NCBI RefSeq assembly: GCF_030811555.1
Contig: NZ_JAUSQZ010000001.1
Span: 6,879,241-6,943,240 of the forward strand
DNA length: 64,000 nucleotides
Direction of reading: 5' to 3'
From: Kineosporia succinea
GTDB lineage: Bacteria > Actinomycetota > Actinomycetes > Actinomycetales > Kineosporiaceae
In this document: in pieces, positions 28,371 through 39,197 of the stretch
Numbering within the stretch: the first letter of the stretch is position 1
Layout of the letters: every line of letters starts with the position of its first letter
Translations under genes and position numbers: made by a program
Notes under the pieces: generated by a model
Told to the model about the DNA's origin: nothing
Seen by the model: only the letters and a program-made list of their open reading frames with translations
Databases searched by the model: none

Positions 28371-30953
28371 TCAGGTCCCTCCGCGACTCAGGGCTCCCAC
28401 CGGCGCGTCCTCGTCCGGGCGCCTGGCACCCGCCTGCCGCAACGTCATCACCATCGTCAGCCCACCGCCCGGCGTGGTCTCGGGAACCAGGCTGCCGCCC
28501 ATCGCCTCGGTCAGACCGCGTGAGAGAGCCAGCCCCAGCCCGACACCCGTGCCGTTGTCCCGGTCACCGAGCCGCTGGAACGGCAGGAACACGTCGTCCC
28601 ACTTCTCGCTCGGGATACCAGGACCCCGGTCGATGACCTTGACCTCGACCACACCCGCGTGCGCGCTCACCGTGACCATCGGCGGAGACTCCGGCGGCGA
28701 GTACCGCAGGGCATTACGCAGCAGATTCACCAGGACCCGCTCGATCAGCACCGGATCGCCCGTCACCTCCAGGAACTCCTCCGGGAGATGCACCGCGATC
28801 CTCTCGCCCGGAGAACCGATCTCGTCCAGGGAGATGGCCACGGTCTCGGCGATACTCGTCGGCTGCGGATGCATGGCCAGAGCCCCCGCCTGCAACCGGC
28901 TCATGTCCAGAAGGTTCTCCACCAGCCGGGTCAGCCGGTCCAGCGACTCCTCCACACTGGCCAGCAGTTCGGCCTGGTCCTCGGCACTGAACTCGACCCC
29001 CGGCGCGCGCAGGCCACCCACCGCGGCCTTCGCCGCCGCCAGGGGCGTGCGCAGATCGTGACTCACCGCGGACAGCAACGCCGTGCGCATCCGGTCGACC
29101 TCGGCCAGCGGACCGGCCGCCGCCGCCTGCTCACTGAGCTGCTGCTGCCGCATCGCCACCACTGCCTGCGCGGCGAAAGCCTGCACCACACGCCGGTCCT
29201 CGGCCGCCAGCGGATGCCCGCACAAGGCCAGCGAGACCTTCTCGTCGACCAGGACCTCCGCATCCCCGGCCCCCGGCGTCCGCAGAGTGCGGCCGACCGA
29301 GGCGACGACTTCCCACGACTCGGGATCGTGCTGCAGATCGGGACTCGGAGCGGCATCAGGCCGGCGCTGCAGCAGAGTCGCGCCGTTGAGGCCGAACGTC
29401 TCCCGCAGCTGATCCAGCAGCGCGGACAACGGCTCGGCGCCGCGCAGCACGTGACCCGCCAGCGTGGACAGCGTCTCGGCCTCCGCCTGCGCGCTGGCGG
29501 CCTCACGGGTGCGCCGGGCCGCCCGGTCGACGGTGGCGCTGACCGCGACCCCGACGACCAGGAAGACGGCCAGGGCCAGGATGTTCTCCCCGGACGCGAT
29601 CGTGACCTCGTGGATGGGCGGTGCGAAGTAGAAGTTCAGGAGGAACGTGCCCAGCAGCGCCGCGACCAGGGCCGGCCACAGACCGCCCACCAGGGCCACG
29701 ACCACCACGGCGGCCAGGTACAGCAGGACGTCGCTGTCGAGAGAGATCCGGTCGCGCAGCTGCGTCAGGAGCAGGGTGAGCACACCGATGCCGAGGGTGG
29801 CCAGGACGAACCCGTAGATCCGGCGGTTGCGGCCGAGGGCGTTCTCCACCTTCGGCAGGGCCCGGCCCTGGCGCACCTGCCCGTGCGTCATCAGGTGCAC
29901 GTCCATGCTGCCCGCCCCGTTGGTCGTGGTCACACCGACGCCCGGCGAGAACAGCGACTGCAGGCGGCTGCGGCGCGAGACTCCCAGCACCAGCTCGGTG
30001 GCGTTGACCCCGCGCGCGAAAGCCAGCAGCGACCTGGGGATGTCGTTGCCGACCACCTGGTGGTAGGTGCCGCCGAGGTCTTCGACGAGCGTGCGCTGCG
30101 CCACCAGATGCGCGTGCGAGCCCCCACTGCTGCTCAGCCCGTCGTTGCGGGCCACGTGCACCGCCAGCAGATCAGCCCCCCGGGAGCGGCTGGCCAGCCG
30201 GGCCGCCCGCCGGATCAGCGTCTCCCCCTCCGGCCCACCCGTCAGCGCCACCACGACCCGCTCCCGCGCCTCCCAGGTCTCCGAGATCCCCTGCGCGGCA
30301 CGATAACTGGACAACTCGTCGTCGACCTTGTCGGCCAGCCACAACAACGCCAGCTCCCGCAGCGCCGTCAGGTTCCCCACCCGGAAATAATTCCCCAGCG
30401 CCGCGTCGATCTTCTCCGGCCGGTAGATGTTGCCGTGCGCCATCCGCCGCCGGATCGCCTCCGGCGCCATGTCCACCAACTCGATCGCCTCGGCCCGGCG
30501 CACCACCTCGTCCGGCACCGTCTCACGCTGCGGCACGCCCGTGATCTGCCGCACGATGTCGTTGATCGACTCCAGGTGCTGCACATTGACCGTGGTCAGC
30601 ACCGTCATCCCGGCGTCCAGCAGTTCCTCGATGTCCTGCCAGCGTTTGGCGTTGCGCGAGCCCGGCACGTTGGTGTGCGCGAGCTCGTCGACCAGCACCA
30701 CCTCCGCACCCCGTTCCAGCACCGCCTCCACGTCCATCTCGGTGAACGTGGCCCCGCGGTAGGTGACGGTCCGCCGCGGGAGCACCTCGAGGTCGGCGAT
30801 CATCGCCTCGGTCTGCTCCCGGCCGTGGGTCTCGACGTAGCCCACGACGACATCGGTCCCGCGTTCGCGGCGCCGGTGGCCCTCCTCGAGCATCTTGTAC
30901 GTCTTGCCCACACCAGGAGCCGCCCCCAGGTGCACCCGCAGCTGACCGGCCAT
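28371..30953 (-). CDS. kdpD: Osmosensitive potassium sensor histidine kinase KdpD
   Basis: An 860-residue KdpD with the full domain order: N-terminal KdpD domain with Walker A-like motif (HLGAAPGVGKTYKML) and VLVDELAHTN, a universal-stress-protein domain (about 220-350), four closely spaced helices (about 380-480), a GAF-like region, HisKA with phospho-acceptor (LSAVSHDLRTPLAAAKAA) and HATPase (NLLRNALRYSP, DRGPGIP, GVGLGLALSRG). It senses K+ limitation and turgor and phosphorylates KdpE. It starts 2 nt after the kdpC stop, hence is the last gene of the operon. Unusually, no kdpE follows: the next gene is a convergent SDR beyond a terminator. The cognate regulator must be elsewhere. Confidence 0.96.
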   Translation of the reverse strand: MAGQLRVHLGAAPGVGKTYKMLEEGHRRRERGTDVVVGYVETHGREQTEAMIADLEVLPRRTVTYRGATFTEMDVEAVLERGAEVVLVDELAHTNVPGSRNAKRWQDIEELLDAGMTVLTTVNVQHLESINDIVRQITGVPQRETVPDEVVRRAEAIELVDMAPEAIRRRMAHGNIYRPEKIDAALGNYFRVGNLTALRELALLWLADKVDDELSSYRAAQGISETWEARERVVVALTGGPEGETLIRRAARLASRSRGADLLAVHVARNDGLSSSGGSHAHLVAQRTLVEDLGGTYHQVVGNDIPRSLLAFARGVNATELVLGVSRRSRLQSLFSPGVGVTTTNGAGSMDVHLMTHGQVRQGRALPKVENALGRNRRIYGFVLATLGIGVLTLLLTQLRDRISLDSDVLLYLAAVVVVALVGGLWPALVAALLGTFLLNFYFAPPIHEVTIASGENILALAVFLVVGVAVSATVDRAARRTREAASAQAEAETLSTLAGHVLRGAEPLSALLDQLRETFGLNGATLLQRRPDAAPSPDLQHDPESWEVVASVGRTLRTPGAGDAEVLVDEKVSLALCGHPLAAEDRRVVQAFAAQAVVAMRQQQLSEQAAAAGPLAEVDRMRTALLSAVSHDLRTPLAAAKAAVGGLRAPGVEFSAEDQAELLASVEESLDRLTRLVENLLDMSRLQAGALAMHPQPTSIAETVAISLDEIGSPGERIAVHLPEEFLEVTGDPVLIERVLVNLLRNALRYSPPESPPMVTVSAHAGVVEVKVIDRGPGIPSEKWDDVFLPFQRLGDRDNGTGVGLGLALSRGLTEAMGGSLVPETTPGGGLTMVMTLRQAGARRPDEDAPVGALSRGGT

Positions 30954-31840: not shown

Positions 31841-33961
31841 TCAGGAGATTCCGGGGATCGCGGAGATCACCAGGTCGATGATCTTGATCCCGACGAACGG
31901 GGTGACGATGCCGCCGAGCCCGTAGACCAGCAGGTTGCGGCGCAGCAGGGTCGCGGCGTCGGAGGGCCGGTACTTCACACCCCGCAGGGCCAGCGGGATC
32001 AGCGCGACGATGACGATCGCGTTGAAGATGACCGCCGACAGGATCGCCGAGGTCGGGCTGTCCAGGCGCATGACGTTCAGCGTGTCCAGGCCCGGGTACA
32101 CCGCGGCGAAGATGGCCGGGATGATCGCGAAGTACTTGGCGATGTCGTTGGCGATCGAGAACGTGGTCAGGGCGCCGCGGGTGATCAGGAGCTGCTTGCC
32201 GATCTCCACGATCTCGATGAGTTTCGTCGGGTCGGAGTCCAGATCCACCATGTTCCCGGCCTCTTTCGCGGCCGAGGTGCCGGTGTTCATCGCCACGCCG
32301 ACGTCGGCCTGGGCCAGCGCCGGCGCGTCGTTGGTGCCGTCGCCGGTCATCGCGACCAGCTTGCCGCCCTCCTGCTCCCGCTTGATCAGGGCGAGCTTGT
32401 CCTCCGGGGTGGCCTCGGCCAGGAAGTCGTCGACCCCGGCCTCCTTCGCGATGGCCTCGGCCGTGCGCGGGTTGTCACCCGTGATCATCACGGTCCGGAT
32501 GCCCATCCGGCGCATCTCGTCGAAACGCTCACGCATGCCGTTCTTCACGACGTCCTTGAGGTGGATCACGCCGAGCACCCGGGTCGCCTCGGCGACCACG
32601 AGCGGCGTCCCCCCGGCCCCCGAGATCTCCTCGACGATGTCCTTCACGTCGGCGGGCACGCGTCCCCCGTTGCCCCGCACCCACTCGACCACCTGGGCCG
32701 ACGCCCCCTTGCGCAACTGGCGTCCGTCGACGTCCACCCCCGACATCCGGGTCTGGGCGGTGAACTCGATCCAGGTCGCCCCGTGGACGTCCCGCTCCCG
32801 GAGCCCGTGGGCAGTTTTCGCGTGCACGACGATCGAGCGTCCCTCCGGCGTCTCGTCGGCCAGGCTCGAGAGCTGGGCCGCGTCCGCCAGCTCGGCCACC
32901 GAGACCCCGTGCACCGGAACGAACTCCGAGGCCTGCCGGTTGCCCAGCGTGATCGTGCCGGTCTTGTCCAGCAGCAGGGTGTTCACGTCACCGGCCGCCT
33001 CCACCGCGCGGCCCGACATGGCCAGCACGTTGCGCTGGACCAGCCGGTCCATGCCGGCGATGCCGATGGCCGACAACAGGGCGCCGATGGTGGTCGGGAT
33101 CAGGCAGACCAGCAGGCTCACCAGCACGATCCCGGTGACGCCGTCAGCGTTCAGGACCGCGTCGTCCGTACCGAAACCCTGCTCCCGGACGGCGAAGATC
33201 GCCATCGGCTGCAACGTGGCCACGGCCATCAGGAAGATGATCGTCAGCGAGGCCAGCAGGATGTTCAGCGCGATCTCGTTCGGCGTCTTCTGCCGGTTCG
33301 CGCCCTCGACCAGGGCGATCATCCGGTCCACGAAGCTCTCACCGGGCCTCTGGGTGATCCGCACGATGATCCGGTCCGAGAGCACCCGGGTACCACCGGT
33401 GACGGCGGACCGGTCGCCGCCCGACTCCCGGATCACGGGCGCGGACTCACCCGTGATCGCGGACTCGTCGACACTGGCGATGCCCTGGACGACCTCACCG
33501 TCACCGGGGATCACCTCACCGGCATCCACGACCACGAAGTCGCCGAGAGCCAGTTCCGGCGCCCCGACCGAGGTTTCGGTCAGGTCGTCGGGCGAGACGA
33601 CCCGCCGGGCGACCGTGTCCTGCTTGGCCTTGCGCAGGGTGTCGGCCTGGGCCTTGCCGCGCCCCTCGGCCACCGCTTCGGCCAGGTTGGCGAAAAGAAC
33701 CGTGAGCCAGAGCCAAACGGTGATCGTCCAGGCGAACACCGACGGCTCGGTGACGGCCAGCACGGTGGTGAGGAGTGAGCCGATCTCGACGATCAGCATC
33801 ACCGGGTTGTGCCACAGGGTGCGTGGGTCGAGCTTGCGCAGCGCGTCCGGCAGCGAGGTCCACAGCTGCCGGGGGTCCAGAAGGCCGCCGCCGGCCTTCG
33901 GTCGTGCCCCTTCGGGCGGGTTGGGTTGCGCCGGGGGGCGCTCGGTGGTGGTCGCAGTCAT
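31841..33961 (-). CDS. kdpB: Potassium-transporting P-type ATPase subunit KdpB
   Basis: A 706-residue P-type ATPase, the energising subunit of KdpFABC. The phosphorylation motif DKTGT (Asp about 332, in [14 protein letters not shown]), the actuator motif TGES ([10 protein letters not shown]), the hinge motif [16 protein letters not shown] and [14 protein letters not shown] are all present. ATG at 33961 ([10 protein letters not shown]) is chosen because AAGGA lies upstream; the frame runs open to 33994. It is separated from kdpA by 70 nt that contain a small hairpin (33994-34008), the largest gap in the operon, which might tune KdpA:KdpB stoichiometry. Confidence 0.97.
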
Positions 33962-34031
33962 CACAAGTCCTTGAACGGGGGACGCCCGGCGCACCGGATC
34001 TTCTCCGGCACCTTCGGCGCGTCAGGGGTTT

Positions 34032-35696
34032 TCAGCTCAGGCCCTCGGCGATGGGGCCGAGCGCCAGGGCCGGCAGGAAGGTCAGGGCCACGACGATCAC
34101 GACCACGCCGACGAGCATCCCGACGAACAGCGGCTGGTAGGTCTTCAGCGTGCCCGCACTCTCCGGCGTCGGCCTCTGAGCGGCCAGGGAACCGGCCAGG
34201 CCGAGCACGAAGATGATCGGCAGCAGACGCCCGAGCAGCATGCAGACGCCCAGCGCGGTGTTGTAGAAGCCGGTGTTCGCACTCAGGCCGGCGAAGGCCG
34301 AGCCGTTGTTGTTGCTCGCGGAGGTGAAGGCGTAGAGCACCTCGGAGAATCCGTGGGAACCGGCGCTGAGCATCGACTCCCGCGCGGCCGGGTCCGCCAT
34401 CGCGACCGCCGTGCCGACCAGGACCAGGCCCGGCGTGGTGAGCAGGTACAGCGAGGCGAACTTGATCTCGCGCGAGCCGATCTTCTTGCCCAGGTACTCC
34501 GGGGTGCGCCCGACCATCAGGCCGGCCACGAAGACCGTGATCACCGCGAGCATCAGCATCCCATACAGGCCGGAACCGGTTCCGCCCGGCGCGATCTCGC
34601 CCAGCATCATGTTCAGCATGGCCAGGCCGCCGCCGAACGAGGTGTACGAGGAGTGGAACGAGTCCACCGCCCCGGTCGAGGTCAGCGTGGTCGCCGCCCC
34701 GAAGGTCGCCGAGTTCAGCACGCCCAGACGCTGCTCCACGCCCTCCGTCGCCGAGCCCGCGGCCGCCGGCACGGTGTTGCCGCCCCCCAGGCCGTTGCTC
34801 AGGTTCAGCAGCGTGATGCTGCTCAGCGCGATGACGCTCATGGCGGCGAGGATCGCGTAACCCTGCTTGTTGCTGCCGACCATCCGGCCGAACGCCCGCG
34901 GCATGGCCACGGGGATCAGCAGGATCAGGAAGATCTGGATCCAGTTCGTCCAGGCCGTCGGGTTCGACAGCGGGTGGGCGCTGTTCACGTTCCAGAACCC
35001 GCCGCCGTTGGTGCCCAGCAGCTTGATCGCCTCCTGGCTGGCCGCGGGGCCGCCCGGGACGGTCTGGGCCCCACCGGCCAGGGTCTGGATCTCGTTCCCG
35101 GCCGAGAAGTTCTGCACCGCACCGGCCGCCACGAAGACGATCGCGGCCACGGTCGCGACCGGCAGCAGGATCCGCAGGCAGATCCGGGTCAGGTCGACCC
35201 AGAAGTTGCCCAGGTGCTCCGTGCGGCTGCGCGCGAAACCTCGCACCAGAGCCACACACACGGCGACCCCGACGGCCGCGGAGACGAAGTTCTGCACCGC
35301 CAGCCCGGACATCTGGGCCAGGTGACCCATGGTGGACTCACCCGAGTAGGCCTGCCAGTTGGTGTTGGCCATGAAGCTCACGGCCGTGTTCCAGGACAGC
35401 CCGGGAGGCAGGCTGTCGAAGCCCAGCGACAGCATCAGCCGGCCCTGCAGACGCAGCAGCAGGTACAGGGCCGCCAGCGAGATCAGGGAGAAGGCCAGCA
35501 CGCTGCGGGCGTACACGCCCCACGGCTGCTCGGCCCCGGGGTCGACCCCGATCGCCCGGTAGACGCCCCGCTCCACACGGGAGTGCCCGGTGCCGGTGAA
35601 GACCCGGTAGAGGTAGTCGCCGGCGGGCCGGTACACAGCCGCGAGCACGACGACGAGCGAGACGACGAAGACGACCCCCGCGGTGGTGTCGCTCAT
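34032..35696 (-). CDS. kdpA: Potassium-transporting ATPase subunit KdpA
   Basis: A 554-residue channel-like subunit with about ten helices and four selectivity-filter-type loops: [36 protein letters not shown] and the fourth pore region ([14 protein letters not shown]). It binds and conducts K+ into KdpB. ATG at 35696 shares one base with the kdpF stop (TGATG), so KdpF and KdpA are translationally coupled. The length matches the family (about 550-600). Confidence 0.97.
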
Positions 35697-35785
35697 CAGA
35701 ACTTCTCCGGGAACAGCAGGGCAGCCAGCATGAACACGGTCAGGCCGAGTGCGATCACCAGTCCGGCCAGGTTCAGGAGAGTCAC
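35696..35785 (-). CDS. kdpF: KdpF small subunit
   Basis: A 29-residue single-helix peptide beginning (V/M)[18 protein letters not shown] and ending LLFPEKF, the characteristic KdpF ending. GTG at 35785 has GGAG 7 nt upstream. Its TGA shares a base with the kdpA ATG. KdpF is the lipid-like stabilising subunit of the pump. Its start overlaps the stop of another tiny upstream gene (35782-35865) by 4 nt. Confidence 0.92.
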
Positions 35786-35865
35786 AGCCGCTCCACCCCT
35801 CGCACGATCAACGCCAGGGCGCCGAAGAGCCCCAGCGTCAGCAGCAGATACAACAGGTCAAGCAC
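35782..35865 (-). CDS. Hydrophobic microprotein at the head of the kdp operon
   Basis: A 27-residue frame beginning with GTG at 35865, GAGGG 6 nt upstream, encodes a single hydrophobic helix ([20 protein letters not shown]) with a basic/acidic tail RGVERL. Its TGA overlaps the kdpF GTG (GTGA), so the two are translationally coupled in the manner of every other junction of the operon. It is not KdpF, which follows with its own FPEKF ending. It could be an additional pump subunit or a regulator of KdpD/KdpB. Coding is supported by ribosome site, coupling and composition; the function is unknown. Confidence 0.75.
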
Positions 35866-35951
35866 CGCTATCCCTCACACTTTCGACATACGTCCCGGCT
35901 TCCAGCCGGCCGTGAGCAAGCACACCGCCCGGCGGGCCGCGAGGGGAGATG

Positions 35952-36001
35952 CCTTGACGCGTCCTTGACGGGCCGGGCCTCGATCCCGACAGCTTCTTGA
36001 C
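35952..36001 (-). promoter_or_regulatory. GTCAAGG direct repeats upstream of kdp, candidate KdpE site
   Basis: Reading the kdp strand, GTCAAGG occurs at 35969-35963 and 35958-35952, an 11-bp period, and GTCAAGA at 36001-35995, 32 bp (about three turns) further upstream. Tandem heptamers one turn apart are typical of OmpR/PhoB-class regulators, to which KdpE belongs. They lie about 87-136 bp upstream of the first GTG of the operon. No clear -10/-35 pair could be fixed. Confidence 0.5.
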
Positions 36002-36052
36002 ACCGGGGCGGGCGCTCACATCTGCGGCGGCGACCTCACCGGGCCAAACCAC

Positions 36053-36091
36053 GCCGCCCCCGTCGAGAACCTGGTCCTCGACGGGGGCGGC
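36053..36091. terminator. Strong terminator after the import/hydrolase operon
   Basis: GCCGCCCCCGTCGAG (36053-36067) and CTCGACGGGGGCGGC (36077-36091) pair perfectly over 15 bp around a 9-nt loop. It lies about 105 nt past the stop of the MFS gene (36196, minus) and upstream of kdp, insulating the kdp promoter from the long upstream operon. Confidence 0.85.
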
Positions 36092-36195
36092 GGGCATCCG
36101 TCCCGGCCCGACGCGAGAGGCGGGCCGGGACGCAACTGCCGTGGATGCCGCTCAGCGGGGCGGTGTCGACCGAGCCGTCGACCTGCCGGGCCTGG

Positions 36196-37719
36196 TCACC
36201 GCGGCCGGGGCGAGGCCGGCGTCGTCAGGCCCGACGCCGGACGTGGCGGTCGCGGTGGCTGCGGCGCCGATGACGCCGGGTCCGGAGCCTCGCACCGGGC
36301 CGGTCCCCGCCCGCGCGGTATGCACAGGCCGGTGACGGCCGAGACCAGGCCCGCGAGCGCGCAGATCCAGAACCCCCGGGTGAAACCGGAGTCTGAGACG
36401 AGCGACGTCGCCACCAGCGCCGTGCCGAGGCTGCCCCCGAGCGAGCGGGCCAGGGTGTTCACACCGGTCGCGACGCCGATCTGGCTGGGCGGTACGTGCT
36501 CGACCACGGCGTTGGCCAGCGCGGCGAAGGCCAGGCCCATGCCGATCCCCAGACCGGTGCTGCAGACCAGCAACTGCCAGTACCCGCTGTGGTCCAGCGC
36601 GGGCAGGGCCATCGACGCGGCCACCACCAGCGCGCCCCCGGTGATCAGGCCGCGCGTGCCGTAACGGGTACTGAGTCTTCCGGAGACCGGGCCGAAGATC
36701 AGCGACATCAGGGCCGAGGGCAGGAGGAAGAGCCCGGCCACGGTGACACTGGCACCGAAACCATAACCGCCGGAACGGGGTACGGTCAGCAGCTGCGGGA
36801 TCAGCAGGAAGCTGCCGAACAGCGCGAACCCGATGGCCAGCGCCGCCAGGTCCGTCGCCCAGACCGCCCGGCGCCGCAGCACCCGGAGGTCGACGAGCGG
36901 GTGCGGCGAACGGGACTCGCTGACCAGCCAGGCCGCGGCCAGCACCACCGCACCGGCCAGCAGGCTCAGCACCCGTGCGCTCGTCCAGCCCCAGACCCCG
37001 GCCTTGCTCAGCCCCAGCAGCAGGGCCGTGAGCCAGCCGGTCAGCAGCACCGGCGGCAGTGGCGAGATCCCGCCCGGCGCCCGGGACGAGGAATCGGGCA
37101 GCCAGTACCAGGCCCCCACCAGGACCACGAGCGTGAGCAGTGCCGGGATCCAGAACAGCCAGCGCCAGCCCAGCACCTCGACGACCGGCCCGGCCGCGAC
37201 GATGCCGATTCCCCCACCGACACCGAGAGTGCCCGACAGCAGGCCGATTCCGGAGGCCACCCGCTCGGGCGGCAGCTGGTCCCGCACGATCCCGAACGAC
37301 AGCGGGTACAGGGCCCCGGCCGCGCCCTGCACGAGGCGCCCGGCGATCAGCACCCCCATCGTCGGCGCGCTCGCCGCGACCACCCCGCCGACGGCCAGCA
37401 GAAAGAGCACGCCCAGCAGCAGGTTCCGTCGCCCGTACAGGTCTCCCAGCCGCCCGGCCAGCGGTGTGGCGACCGCAGCCGCGAGCAGGTACCCGGTCAG
37501 CACCCAGCTCGAGGTCGAGGGGTCGGCCCCGAGCTCGGCGCCCATCGTCCCCAGGGCGGGGTTGACCAGTGACTGCAGCACCGAGAAGTTGCCGGCCCCC
37601 AGGGCCAGCAGGGTCAGCAGCAGAACGGGGGACGCGCCGGGGCGCCCGGGCGGTGGGGTCGCCTCGGCCGGCGGGTCGCCGGGGAGCGGGGACGAACCGC
37701 CGGCCGAGGCGGGGTTCAC
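36196..37719 (-). CDS. MFS transporter (DHA2-like) closing the operon
   Basis: A 507-residue major-facilitator exporter of the EmrB/QacA type with about 14 helices: motif A-like GRLGDLYGRRNLL, motif C-like GLLSGTLGVGGGIGIVAAGP, and a later DLAALAIGFALFGSFLL half. A Pro/Arg-rich cytoplasmic tail of about 50 residues follows the last helix. The GTG start at 37719 overlaps the hydantoinase TGA (GTGA); the frame continues upstream only as an antisense artefact. As last gene of an import-and-hydrolysis operon it may export a product or a toxic analogue, by inference. Confidence 0.9.
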   Translation of the reverse strand: MNPASAGGSSPLPGDPPAEATPPPGRPGASPVLLLTLLALGAGNFSVLQSLVNPALGTMGAELGADPSTSSWVLTGYLLAAAVATPLAGRLGDLYGRRNLLLGVLFLLAVGGVVAASAPTMGVLIAGRLVQGAAGALYPLSFGIVRDQLPPERVASGIGLLSGTLGVGGGIGIVAAGPVVEVLGWRWLFWIPALLTLVVLVGAWYWLPDSSSRAPGGISPLPPVLLTGWLTALLLGLSKAGVWGWTSARVLSLLAGAVVLAAAWLVSESRSPHPLVDLRVLRRRAVWATDLAALAIGFALFGSFLLIPQLLTVPRSGGYGFGASVTVAGLFLLPSALMSLIFGPVSGRLSTRYGTRGLITGGALVVAASMALPALDHSGYWQLLVCSTGLGIGMGLAFAALANAVVEHVPPSQIGVATGVNTLARSLGGSLGTALVATSLVSDSGFTRGFWICALAGLVSAVTGLCIPRGRGPARCEAPDPASSAPQPPRPPRPASGLTTPASPRPR

Positions 37720-39197
37720 CGCCCGGCCGCCGGGGTGACGGTGGTGGGGCGGGCGACGTAGCGCCCGGTCGGCTCTCCGGTGACGACGCCCTTGGTCAGG
37801 ACCCGGTGACCGCGGACCCAGGTGTCGGTGACGGTCGCGCCGACCTCGAACCCGTCGAACGGGGTGTACTCCTGCGTGGACTCGGAATCGGCCGGGTCGA
37901 CGGTGAAGGAGCGGTTCGGGTCGACCAGCGCGAGGTCGGCGTCGTAGCCGACCGCGATCGTCCCCTTGCTGCCCAGACCGTACCGCTGGGCCGGGTTCCA
38001 CGACGTCAGAGCCGCGATCCGGCGCAGCGACAGACCACGCTTGGTGCCCTCGCCGACCAGGCCGGGCAGGAGGTACTCGGCTCCCCCGAACCCGGACTTC
38101 GCTGCGAAGACGTCCTCGCGGGGATCACCGAACTTCTTCTCGTCCTTGCAGCAGGCGTGGTCACTGACCACCCAGCTGACGTCACCGGCCAGCAGGTGCT
38201 CCCACAGGGCCTCGACGTCGGCGCGCGGGCGCAGCGGCGGGTTGACCTTGCCCCCGATGCCGGCGGCGGTGTCGATGTCGGCCAGCAGGTGCCCGATCGT
38301 GACCTCGCGGCGGAAGTCCAGGTGCGGGAACGTCTTGGCCATCAGCATCGCCGCGCGCATCGCCTTGGCCGAGGACAGGTGCAGCAGGTTGATGTTGGCC
38401 AGGTTCGTCTCATCGGCCAGTACGGCGGCGATGCTCACGGCCAGCGCCTCGGAGTGCTGCGGGCGCGAGGCGCTGTAGGCGGCCAGGCCGGACAGCGTGC
38501 CCTCCTGCTCGACGAGTCTGGTGTAGGCACTCATGATCTCGGCGGTCTCGCAGTGCAGCGACAGCGAGATCGCGTCGGCCAGGTCCGGGAAACGCTCCCG
38601 GGCGGCCTGCACACCGCGCATGACGAACTCGAAGTGCGCCAGGTCGTAGCGCTCGTCGGGCGGGGTCATCAGGAAGCTGGACTGGTCGGACGAGCGCCCG
38701 TGCAGGCCGTGCGAGCCGTAGAACATGAAGATCTTGAACGAGGTGACGCCGAACTCCTCGATCAGCGCGGGGATCTCGTCGATGTGCTGGTTCATCATCG
38801 GCGCCAGGTGGAAGGCGTAGTCGACGTACGAGCGGTCCTGCGACGCGGCCAGGACCTTCGGGAAGAACTCGCGGTACGGACCGCCCTCGTTGAGGTAGTA
38901 CTGGCCCGTGCGCATGTAGGTCAGGCCGGTGGTCACGCCGCCCTGCGCCGAGGCCCGGCTCTCGGTCGTGGTGTCCTCGGACAGCGGGTTGTAGATGCCC
39001 CAGTGCTGGTGGGCGTCCACCACTCCGGGGAAGGCGAGCAGCCCCGCGCCGTCGACGACGTTCGCCACGCCCTCGACCGGCAGACCGGCCTCGATCCGCA
39101 CGAACTTCCCGTCGGCGATGCCGATGTCGAGCAGCTCCCCCGCGTCCGGACCGGCGTCGGGACGCACGACGGTGACGTTCTTGATGACAGTGTCCAC
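37716..39197 (-). CDS. Cyclic amidohydrolase (hydantoinase/dihydropyrimidinase/allantoinase family)
   Basis: A 493-residue metal-dependent amidohydrolase that opens cyclic amides or ureides. The binuclear metal ligands are visible: DAHQHWG (the HxH pair), the carboxylated Lys in TSFKIFMFYG, His in SLHCETAE, His in LLHLSSAKA and Asp in WVVSDHACC. The C-terminal composite barrel follows (GTIAVGYDADLALVDPN). Length and motifs fit D-hydantoinase/allantoinase-like proteins; dihydroorotase is less likely because no pyrimidine gene is nearby. It lies 13 nt after the metal-poor amidohydrolase and overlaps the MFS start. The substrate is probably what the upstream ABC importer brings in. Confidence 0.88.
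   Translation of the reverse strand: MDTVIKNVTVVRPDAGPDAGELLDIGIADGKFVRIEAGLPVEGVANVVDGAGLLAFPGVVDAHQHWGIYNPLSEDTTTESRASAQGGVTTGLTYMRTGQYYLNEGGPYREFFPKVLAASQDRSYVDYAFHLAPMMNQHIDEIPALIEEFGVTSFKIFMFYGSHGLHGRSSDQSSFLMTPPDERYDLAHFEFVMRGVQAARERFPDLADAISLSLHCETAEIMSAYTRLVEQEGTLSGLAAYSASRPQHSEALAVSIAAVLADETNLANINLLHLSSAKAMRAAMLMAKTFPHLDFRREVTIGHLLADIDTAAGIGGKVNPPLRPRADVEALWEHLLAGDVSWVVSDHACCKDEKKFGDPREDVFAAKSGFGGAEYLLPGLVGEGTKRGLSLRRIAALTSWNPAQRYGLGSKGTIAVGYDADLALVDPNRSFTVDPADSESTQEYTPFDGFEVGATVTDTWVRGHRVLTKGVVTGEPTGRYVARPTTVTPAAGR

Follow-up and report, generated by a model that had tools for sequence, protein, structure and literature searches.

KdpZ, a conserved single-helix microprotein encoded before kdpF, is a candidate partner of the KdpFABC potassium pump

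The KdpFABC complex is a textbook P-type ATPase that is known mainly from Escherichia coli, and structural work rests on the E. coli pump. KdpF stabilizes the complex or tunes its activity in E. coli, as sarcolipin-type peptides do for other P-type ATPases. In Clostridium acetobutylicum, a 1997 study reportedly assigned small hydrophobic peptides to orfZ and orfY, and we know of no function for the kdpZ/orfZ of this organism. The C. acetobutylicum operon is cited as kdpZYABCXDE (PMC5401905). The same source describes, for the kdpFABC operon of Mycobacterium smegmatis (MSMEG_5391), a 120-nt leader determined by 5'-RACE and called a 5'-UTR, and a mapped KdpE site that reads CCGTAAAGAAACCATCAAGGCC (PMC5401905). 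For Caulobacter crescentus, a structured kdp leader of ~100 nt is described (PMC8552747).

The DNA considered here is a stretch of 64,000 nucleotides from Kineosporia succinea (the window), in which the minus-strand gene order is kdpZ, kdpF, kdpA, kdpB. We coin the name kdpZ (or Z) for the 27-codon frame at the start of this order and for the family to which it belongs. The features of the locus are as follows.

35953..35968, minus strand: TCAAG-N6-TCAAG direct repeat, ~103 nt before kdpZ, resembling the M. smegmatis KdpE site
35872..35876, minus strand: GAGGG ribosome-binding site of kdpZ, 6 nt 5' of the GTG (from the sequence)
35782..35865, minus strand: kdpZ, single-helix microprotein, 27 aa, GTG start, TGA stop (open reading frame and family HMM)
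35785..35802, minus strand: kdpZ codons 22-27 (CGA GGG GTG GAG CGG CTG) with the likely kdpF Shine-Dalgarno (sequence and codon usage)
35782..35785, minus strand: GTGA, overlap of the kdpZ stop and the kdpF start (open reading frames)
35696..35785, minus strand: kdpF, 29 aa, GTG start at 35785 (PF09604, E=2.6e-6; TIGR02115)
34032..35696, minus strand: kdpA, K+-binding subunit (PF03814, E=9.6e-219; NCBIfam)
31841..33994, minus strand: kdpB, P-type ATPase subunit (open reading frame translation, DKTGT motif only)
30324..30947 (G000:C1:6909564-6910187), minus strand: KdpD N-terminal domain, downstream, same direction (PF02702)

The identities of KdpF and KdpA are certain. As read from the window, the GTG start codon of kdpZ occupies 35865..35863 on the minus strand, and the product is one hydrophobic helix with RGVERL at its C-terminal end. 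A sequence-only reading of this DNA had described a 27-residue GTG frame with a GAGGG site, one hydrophobic helix, and an RGVERL end, whose stop overlaps the kdpF start by GTGA; all of these are present, the overlap at 35785..35782. It had also taken the frame to be an extra small protein besides KdpF, and the family searches agree: kdpF matches PF09604, whereas a match to the window kdpZ is absent from both Pfam and NCBIfam at E<=1. Ten kdpZ relatives gave insignificant Pfam or NCBIfam matches only (best E=0.085). Within the genome of the window, kdpZ is matched once. A search of open-access journal papers found no functional description of the protein.

A frame of 27 codons with a GTG start and no Pfam or NCBIfam match could be a chance or noncoding frame in a 5' untranslated region, and the stretch before kdpF is indeed called a 120-nt 5'-UTR for M. 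smegmatis (PMC5401905). We consider this reading highly improbable and reject it at the level of sequence on the basis of selection, an HMM with an antisense control, recurrence across phyla, and constant placement. Substitutions are not random, with a pN/pS of 0.44 over 40 disjoint pairs, as the sequence-only reading had anticipated for a real gene. When all 714 pairs at 5-30% divergence are taken, the true frame gives 0.59 compared with 1.06 and 1.44 in the other two frames. The rows behind these values are 108 (106 unique) of the 141 kdpZ loci, those in which the frame ends in a motif-like tail, and the tail codons are thus selected for conservation. Codons 2-21 alone, which this choice does not affect, give a pN/pS of 0.49 (43 pairs; Fisher p=5e-15, computed from counts with sites taken as independent). 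The 78 nt 5' of kdpZ, taken unaligned from a fixed offset and near saturation, give 1.02, which serves as an unconstrained baseline and not as a matched control. An HMM built from other loci finds the window frame at E=1.2e-12 among 1,196 six-frame peptides of the 64-kb window, with a runner-up at 0.48. Together with homologues in the same place at 79 of the 80 named loci described below, this score and the frame contrast in pN/pS indicate that kdpZ is, as far as sequence can tell, a real protein-coding gene under purifying selection, with features far beyond chance.

The 80 named kdpA loci are all actinobacterial and are those nearest to the window, the best 80 of at least 592. The family HMM was seeded with 63 peptides from them. 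At E<0.01, kdpZ is found before kdpF in 79 of these best 80, with Tomitella (L170) as the sole exception. Among these best 80 of at least 592, Kineosporia babensis has the closest KdpA (77% identity). In the taxonomic family to which the window's genome belongs, a kdpZ query matches at E<=1 in 13 of 13 genomes and at 15 loci, 13 of which have the order kdpZ-kdpF-kdpA. At one locus, L013, the frame starts like kdpZ but reads on, lacking the usual tail, and is followed by kdpF, with no kdpA in the 2.1 kb examined. The translated kdpZ-kdpF stretch of a same-genus genome (G005, L014) is identical to that of K. babensis (L098).

The distribution is less even across the phylum. Of 70 loci drawn phylum-wide (L016-L085), 38 have kdpZ at E<0.01 and 32 have no detectable copy. 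Because many kdp loci are without a detectable kdpZ, it is not a universal subunit. Overall, kdpZ is found at E<0.01 in 141 of the 185 loci with a placeable kdpA start (from 187 sequences, a few of them duplicates), and the best antisense score in the same stretches is E=3.1. At four loci, three mycobacterial and one presumed (L028, L106, L113, and L117), the helix is kept and the RGVERL-like tail is lost (for example LRLGS, LKLEL), which suggests decay or altered function of kdpZ. L081 (G389) and L082 (G108) carry a divergent second kdpA in tandem with a normal one, and neither kdpZ nor KdpF was recognized before the divergent copy.

The family also extends beyond the actinobacteria. When a model built from the named actinobacteria only was applied to 26 nonactinobacterial loci, the six best matches were all the expected frame before kdpF (Microvirga, Thalassospira, Phenylobacterium, Azospirillum, Caballeronia, and Shinella; E from 3e-7 to 2e-3). 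Noise in the same search lay at E=0.73 for the best antisense frame and 0.44 for the KdpF frame of Raoultella. The scores of Mycetohabitans (0.16), Deinococcus radiodurans (0.17), Sinorhizobium meliloti (0.21), Rhizobium (0.62), and S. fredii (2.2) are weak with this model, and these frames are likely members of the family. The Mycetohabitans protein (WP_338861741.1, 34 aa) lies in the same place with a 4-nt overlap with kdpF and scores E=8e-8 with an iterated HMM, which may have had it in its training set. At E<0.01, this iterated model, in whose training set several nonactinobacterial loci may be included, finds kdpZ in 8 of 13 alphaproteobacterial loci, 2 of 2 betaproteobacterial loci, and 1 of 2 Deinococcus loci, and in 0 of 2 gammaproteobacterial, 0 of 2 cyanobacterial, 0 of 3 Bacillota, 0 of 1 Bacteroides, and 0 of 1 Halobacterium loci. 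Look-alike frames in Bacteroides, Niallia, Acetobacter, Paracoccus, Novosphingobium, and Lichenicola fail at this threshold, and kdpZ was undetected in E. coli, Raoultella, Halobacterium, two cyanobacteria, and two Lactobacillales. E. coli K-12 has no kdpZ-like frame before kdpF. The sequence-only reading had supposed an actinobacterial protein, which is correct for its presence in that phylum and too narrow in that Pseudomonadota and one Deinococcus have it as well.

Annotation of kdpZ is uneven. A tblastn search of plasmids with the window peptide gave no match; the rhizobial version matches 162 plasmid records at E<=10. Among 20 of these 162 rows, 16 have no listed feature and 4 are in unannotated records, counts that rest on an incomplete gene table. 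The Mycetohabitans gene is annotated in 8 of 9 plasmid records under the NCBI name 'potassium ABC transporter ATPase', which is misleading, and the Azospirillum lipoferum gene falls within a 'hypothetical protein'. The expectation that gene callers skip the frame therefore holds for part of the records only, as others do annotate it.

The residue pattern was taken from the 87 distinct products that are exactly 27 residues long, with other lengths excluded. Asp3 is present in 72, Thr10 in 64, and Phe14 in 82, and the tail has Lys/Arg22 in 80, Val24 in 78, Lys/Arg26 in 85, and Leu27 in 79. The tail motif is [KR]xx[VC][DE][KR]L. The window frame shows the full set of family features, namely a single hydrophobic helix of ~27 aa, Asp3, Phe14, a basic C-terminus, and a location before kdpF. 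None of the 87 carries a net positive charge over its first five residues (87/87), and 78 of 87 carry one over their last eight. This charge pattern predicts an N-out, C-in topology, with the N-terminus probably outside and the basic C-terminus inside. The most informative helix positions are 6, 10, 14, and 18, and the conservation moment of the helix, calculated at 100 degrees, is not significant (p=0.15).

Could kdpZ simply be a KdpF duplicate that has diverged and is redundant in function? KdpF is likewise a single-helix protein of similar size (~29 aa) with a charged C-terminus, encoded next door in the same operon, and at one locus (L080, G133) kdpZ overlaps kdpA directly with no KdpF found, as if replacing it. 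The two nevertheless form separate families by HMM and hhalign. The profile-profile probability between them is 1.8% over 1 column, compared with 99.1% for kdpZ against itself, and we reject a paralogous relationship on this basis. No kdpZ match to PF09604 or TIGR02115 appears at E<=1 while the neighboring kdpF matches, and the KdpF motif is PE[KR]F, not the kdpZ tail motif given above. Furthermore, kdpZ and KdpF coexist in 145 of 147 distinct kdpZ loci, which makes a redundant KdpF copy very unlikely. The presence of kdpZ does vary with the KdpF C-terminus, at 134 of 150 distinct loci with a PERF-type end, 11 of 32 with another end, and 2 of 13 without a recognized KdpF; this association is confounded by phylogeny, and we do not treat it as proof. 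The regular expression used for the kdpZ tail in this tabulation is loose and passes L160, L167, L169, and L172 despite their altered tails.

In 124 of 139 kdpZ loci with a recognized kdpF (L065 and L080, which lack one, are outside this count), the overlap with kdpF is exactly 4 nt, and kdpZ and kdpF are probably translationally coupled. The likely kdpF Shine-Dalgarno sits within kdpZ codons 22-25. GGG accounts for 78% of the glycine codons at position 23 compared with 23% in kdpA, and GTG for 76% of the valine codons at position 24 compared with 45% in kdpA. Because the ribosome site of kdpF lies inside these codons, conservation of RGVERL is partly at the RNA level. The tail is also kept where the overlap is missing, as KAVERL with an 88-nt gap (L104) and as KGVDRL with a 112-nt gap (L126). 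RGVERL is thus held by two constraints, and its conservation, which had been read as a property of the protein, is in part due to the kdpF Shine-Dalgarno.

The near-constant overlap and the overused GGG and GTG codons at the kdpF ribosome site would also be expected if kdpZ were a leader or coupling frame, in which the selected trait is translation of the frame, opening the kdpF start or bringing ribosomes to it, and the peptide itself is idle. We regard this as rather unlikely. Codons 2-21, which are clear of the ribosome site, show selection on amino acids, the helix and basic tail persist across the 88- and 112-nt gaps, and homology of the peptide extends to Pseudomonadota. Gene order argues in the same direction. 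In G121 (L065), the end of kdpB lies ~9 nt before kdpZ, which is followed by a short KdpF-like frame and then by kdpA, so that kdpZ is not at the operon head. This kdpB is 69% identical to the window kdpB over the part within L065, and the short KdpF-like frame is not recognized by the KdpF HMM. In D. radiodurans, kdpB precedes kdpA and kdpC, and kdpZ-kdpF lies directly before kdpA, ~450 nt behind kdpB, although this gap could hold a promoter. These two gene orders indicate that kdpZ travels with kdpF-kdpA. The marks of a leader peptide, a function independent of sequence and a place at the transcript head, do not appear to describe kdpZ.

The repeat before the window kdpZ reads TCAAGGACGCGTCAAG and agrees with the M. 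smegmatis KdpE site at 16 of 22 positions, counted by eye. The pattern TSAAG-N6-TSAAG, chosen after seeing the window, occurs upstream of kdpZ in 15 of 141 loci, including the duplicate pairs window/L001 and L014/L098, compared with a mean of 0.02 and a maximum of 1 in simple shuffles. Between kdpZ and an upstream transporter-like gene (36196..38001, minus strand) is a strong GC-rich hairpin at 36049-36095, perhaps a terminator, to which a simple terminator scan gave no score. A sigma-70 scan found nothing. Rfam returned four microRNA matches only for the kdpZ leader, all over one hairpin and far below cut-offs, and an RNA element there was rejected for this reason.

The sequence-only reading had left the choice between the pump and the sensor kinase KdpD as partner. 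kdpZ could act on KdpD in the way that MgrB and similar small membrane proteins act on PhoQ. A KdpD-domain match is present in 78 of 79 genomes searched, KdpD follows the pump genes in the window, and a KdpE-like box precedes kdpZ. With KdpD so nearly ubiquitous, however, co-occurrence cannot decide the partner. A further point for KdpD comes from L015 (G009, contig 17), where a KdpE-like box, a kdpZ-like frame with extra residues, a KdpC-like end (recognized by eye), and kdpD remain, with no match to kdpF, kdpA, or kdpB. This looks like a deletion relic of a kdp locus and is the only case seen of a kdpZ-like frame near kdpD without kdpF.

A 40-row kdpZ alignment, some rows of which come from the same genomes, was searched in 396 genomes of the phylum. 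All 31 matches below E=1e-4 are at kdp loci, 29 directly before kdpA and the other two (G304 and G329) directly before kdpF, with kdpA broken or not found in the stretch examined. A further 12 matches score between 1e-4 and 0.01; 6 of them lie beside kdpA, and of the 6 that do not, 5 are inside frames of at least 248 residues. Matches at E<=1, found in 205 of 396 genomes, are mostly noise. In G346, kdpA and kdpZ lie at 2.36 Mb and the only KdpD match at 3.83 Mb of one contig, 1.46 Mb apart, and kdpZ and the KdpD match are on different contigs in G258, G194, and G173. The KdpD domain of G121 (a genome 96% complete) is found only in a 392-residue frame, and DUF4118, the KdpD membrane domain, was not found there at E<=0.001. 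G304 has kdpZ-kdpF with neither KdpD nor DUF4118 found, although its kdpA reading is broken. At L215 (G329), a kdpZ-kdpF pair has no kdpA behind it in the examined stretch and a KdpD-domain match nearby. The window's genome has a second KdpD gene (G000:C1:3809976-3810599), far from its single kdpA and without a kdpZ match. Thus, the linkage of kdpZ is to kdpF-kdpA, not to kdpD and not to the operon head. Because the three genes remain together where kdpD is distant or where no KdpD membrane domain was found, KdpD appears the less likely partner; we consider action on KdpD unlikely, and linkage favors the pump.

The reading that we prefer, and hold to be reasonably likely, is that kdpZ encodes a protein that serves KdpFABC as an accessory subunit or a modulator. 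In the window, kdpZ is the first gene of a kdpZ-F-A-B operon, and its product is probably made in step with KdpF through translational coupling. This product would most likely join or transiently bind KdpFABC on the KdpF/KdpA side, where it could stabilize the complex or tune its activity. A search of the PDB with the kdpZ profile gave nothing below E=2.1. The PDB KdpA chains matched comprise three distinct 557-aa sequences in 25 entries, which we take to be the E. coli protein. A broader proposal, which we put forward only tentatively, is that the high-affinity K+ pump of many bacteria might be a five-protein KdpZ-F-A-B-C complex, with the four-subunit E. coli pump as the exception and kdpZ acting like sarcolipin on stability, affinity, or inhibition. 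If kdpZ does encode a subunit or regulator, the model complex would give an incomplete picture of the pump in many actinobacteria, alphaproteobacteria, and others. Published work with kdp constructs or deletions, and '5'-UTR' readings (M. smegmatis, perhaps Caulobacter), would then need rereading. For annotators, kdpZ is a concrete, unnamed family to model.

Overall, kdpZ looks, from its sequence and setting, like an overlooked partner of KdpFABC without a counterpart in E. coli K-12. It resembles sarcolipin/phospholamban, CydX, and AcrZ, single-helix partners of pumps and oxidases, in size, topology, and genetic linkage, an analogy for which no sequence relation is claimed. The M. smegmatis kdpFABC leader of 120 nt is called untranslated (PMC5401905) but is long enough for kdpZ, as judged from other mycobacterial loci. 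In 7 of 9 such loci (five mycobacterial and four presumed, with the later kdpZ start chosen by script in two), kdpZ starts 80 nt before kdpF, an offset that would put it inside the M. smegmatis leader. The C. crescentus leader may also hold kdpZ, as Phenylobacterium has it. The kdpZ of C. acetobutylicum precedes a further small gene and kdpA and shares a transcript with them when K+ is limiting; it is alike in position and, at that level, likely a precedent. To this known position, the present analysis adds the breadth of the family, the selection acting on it, and an argument for the pump over KdpD.
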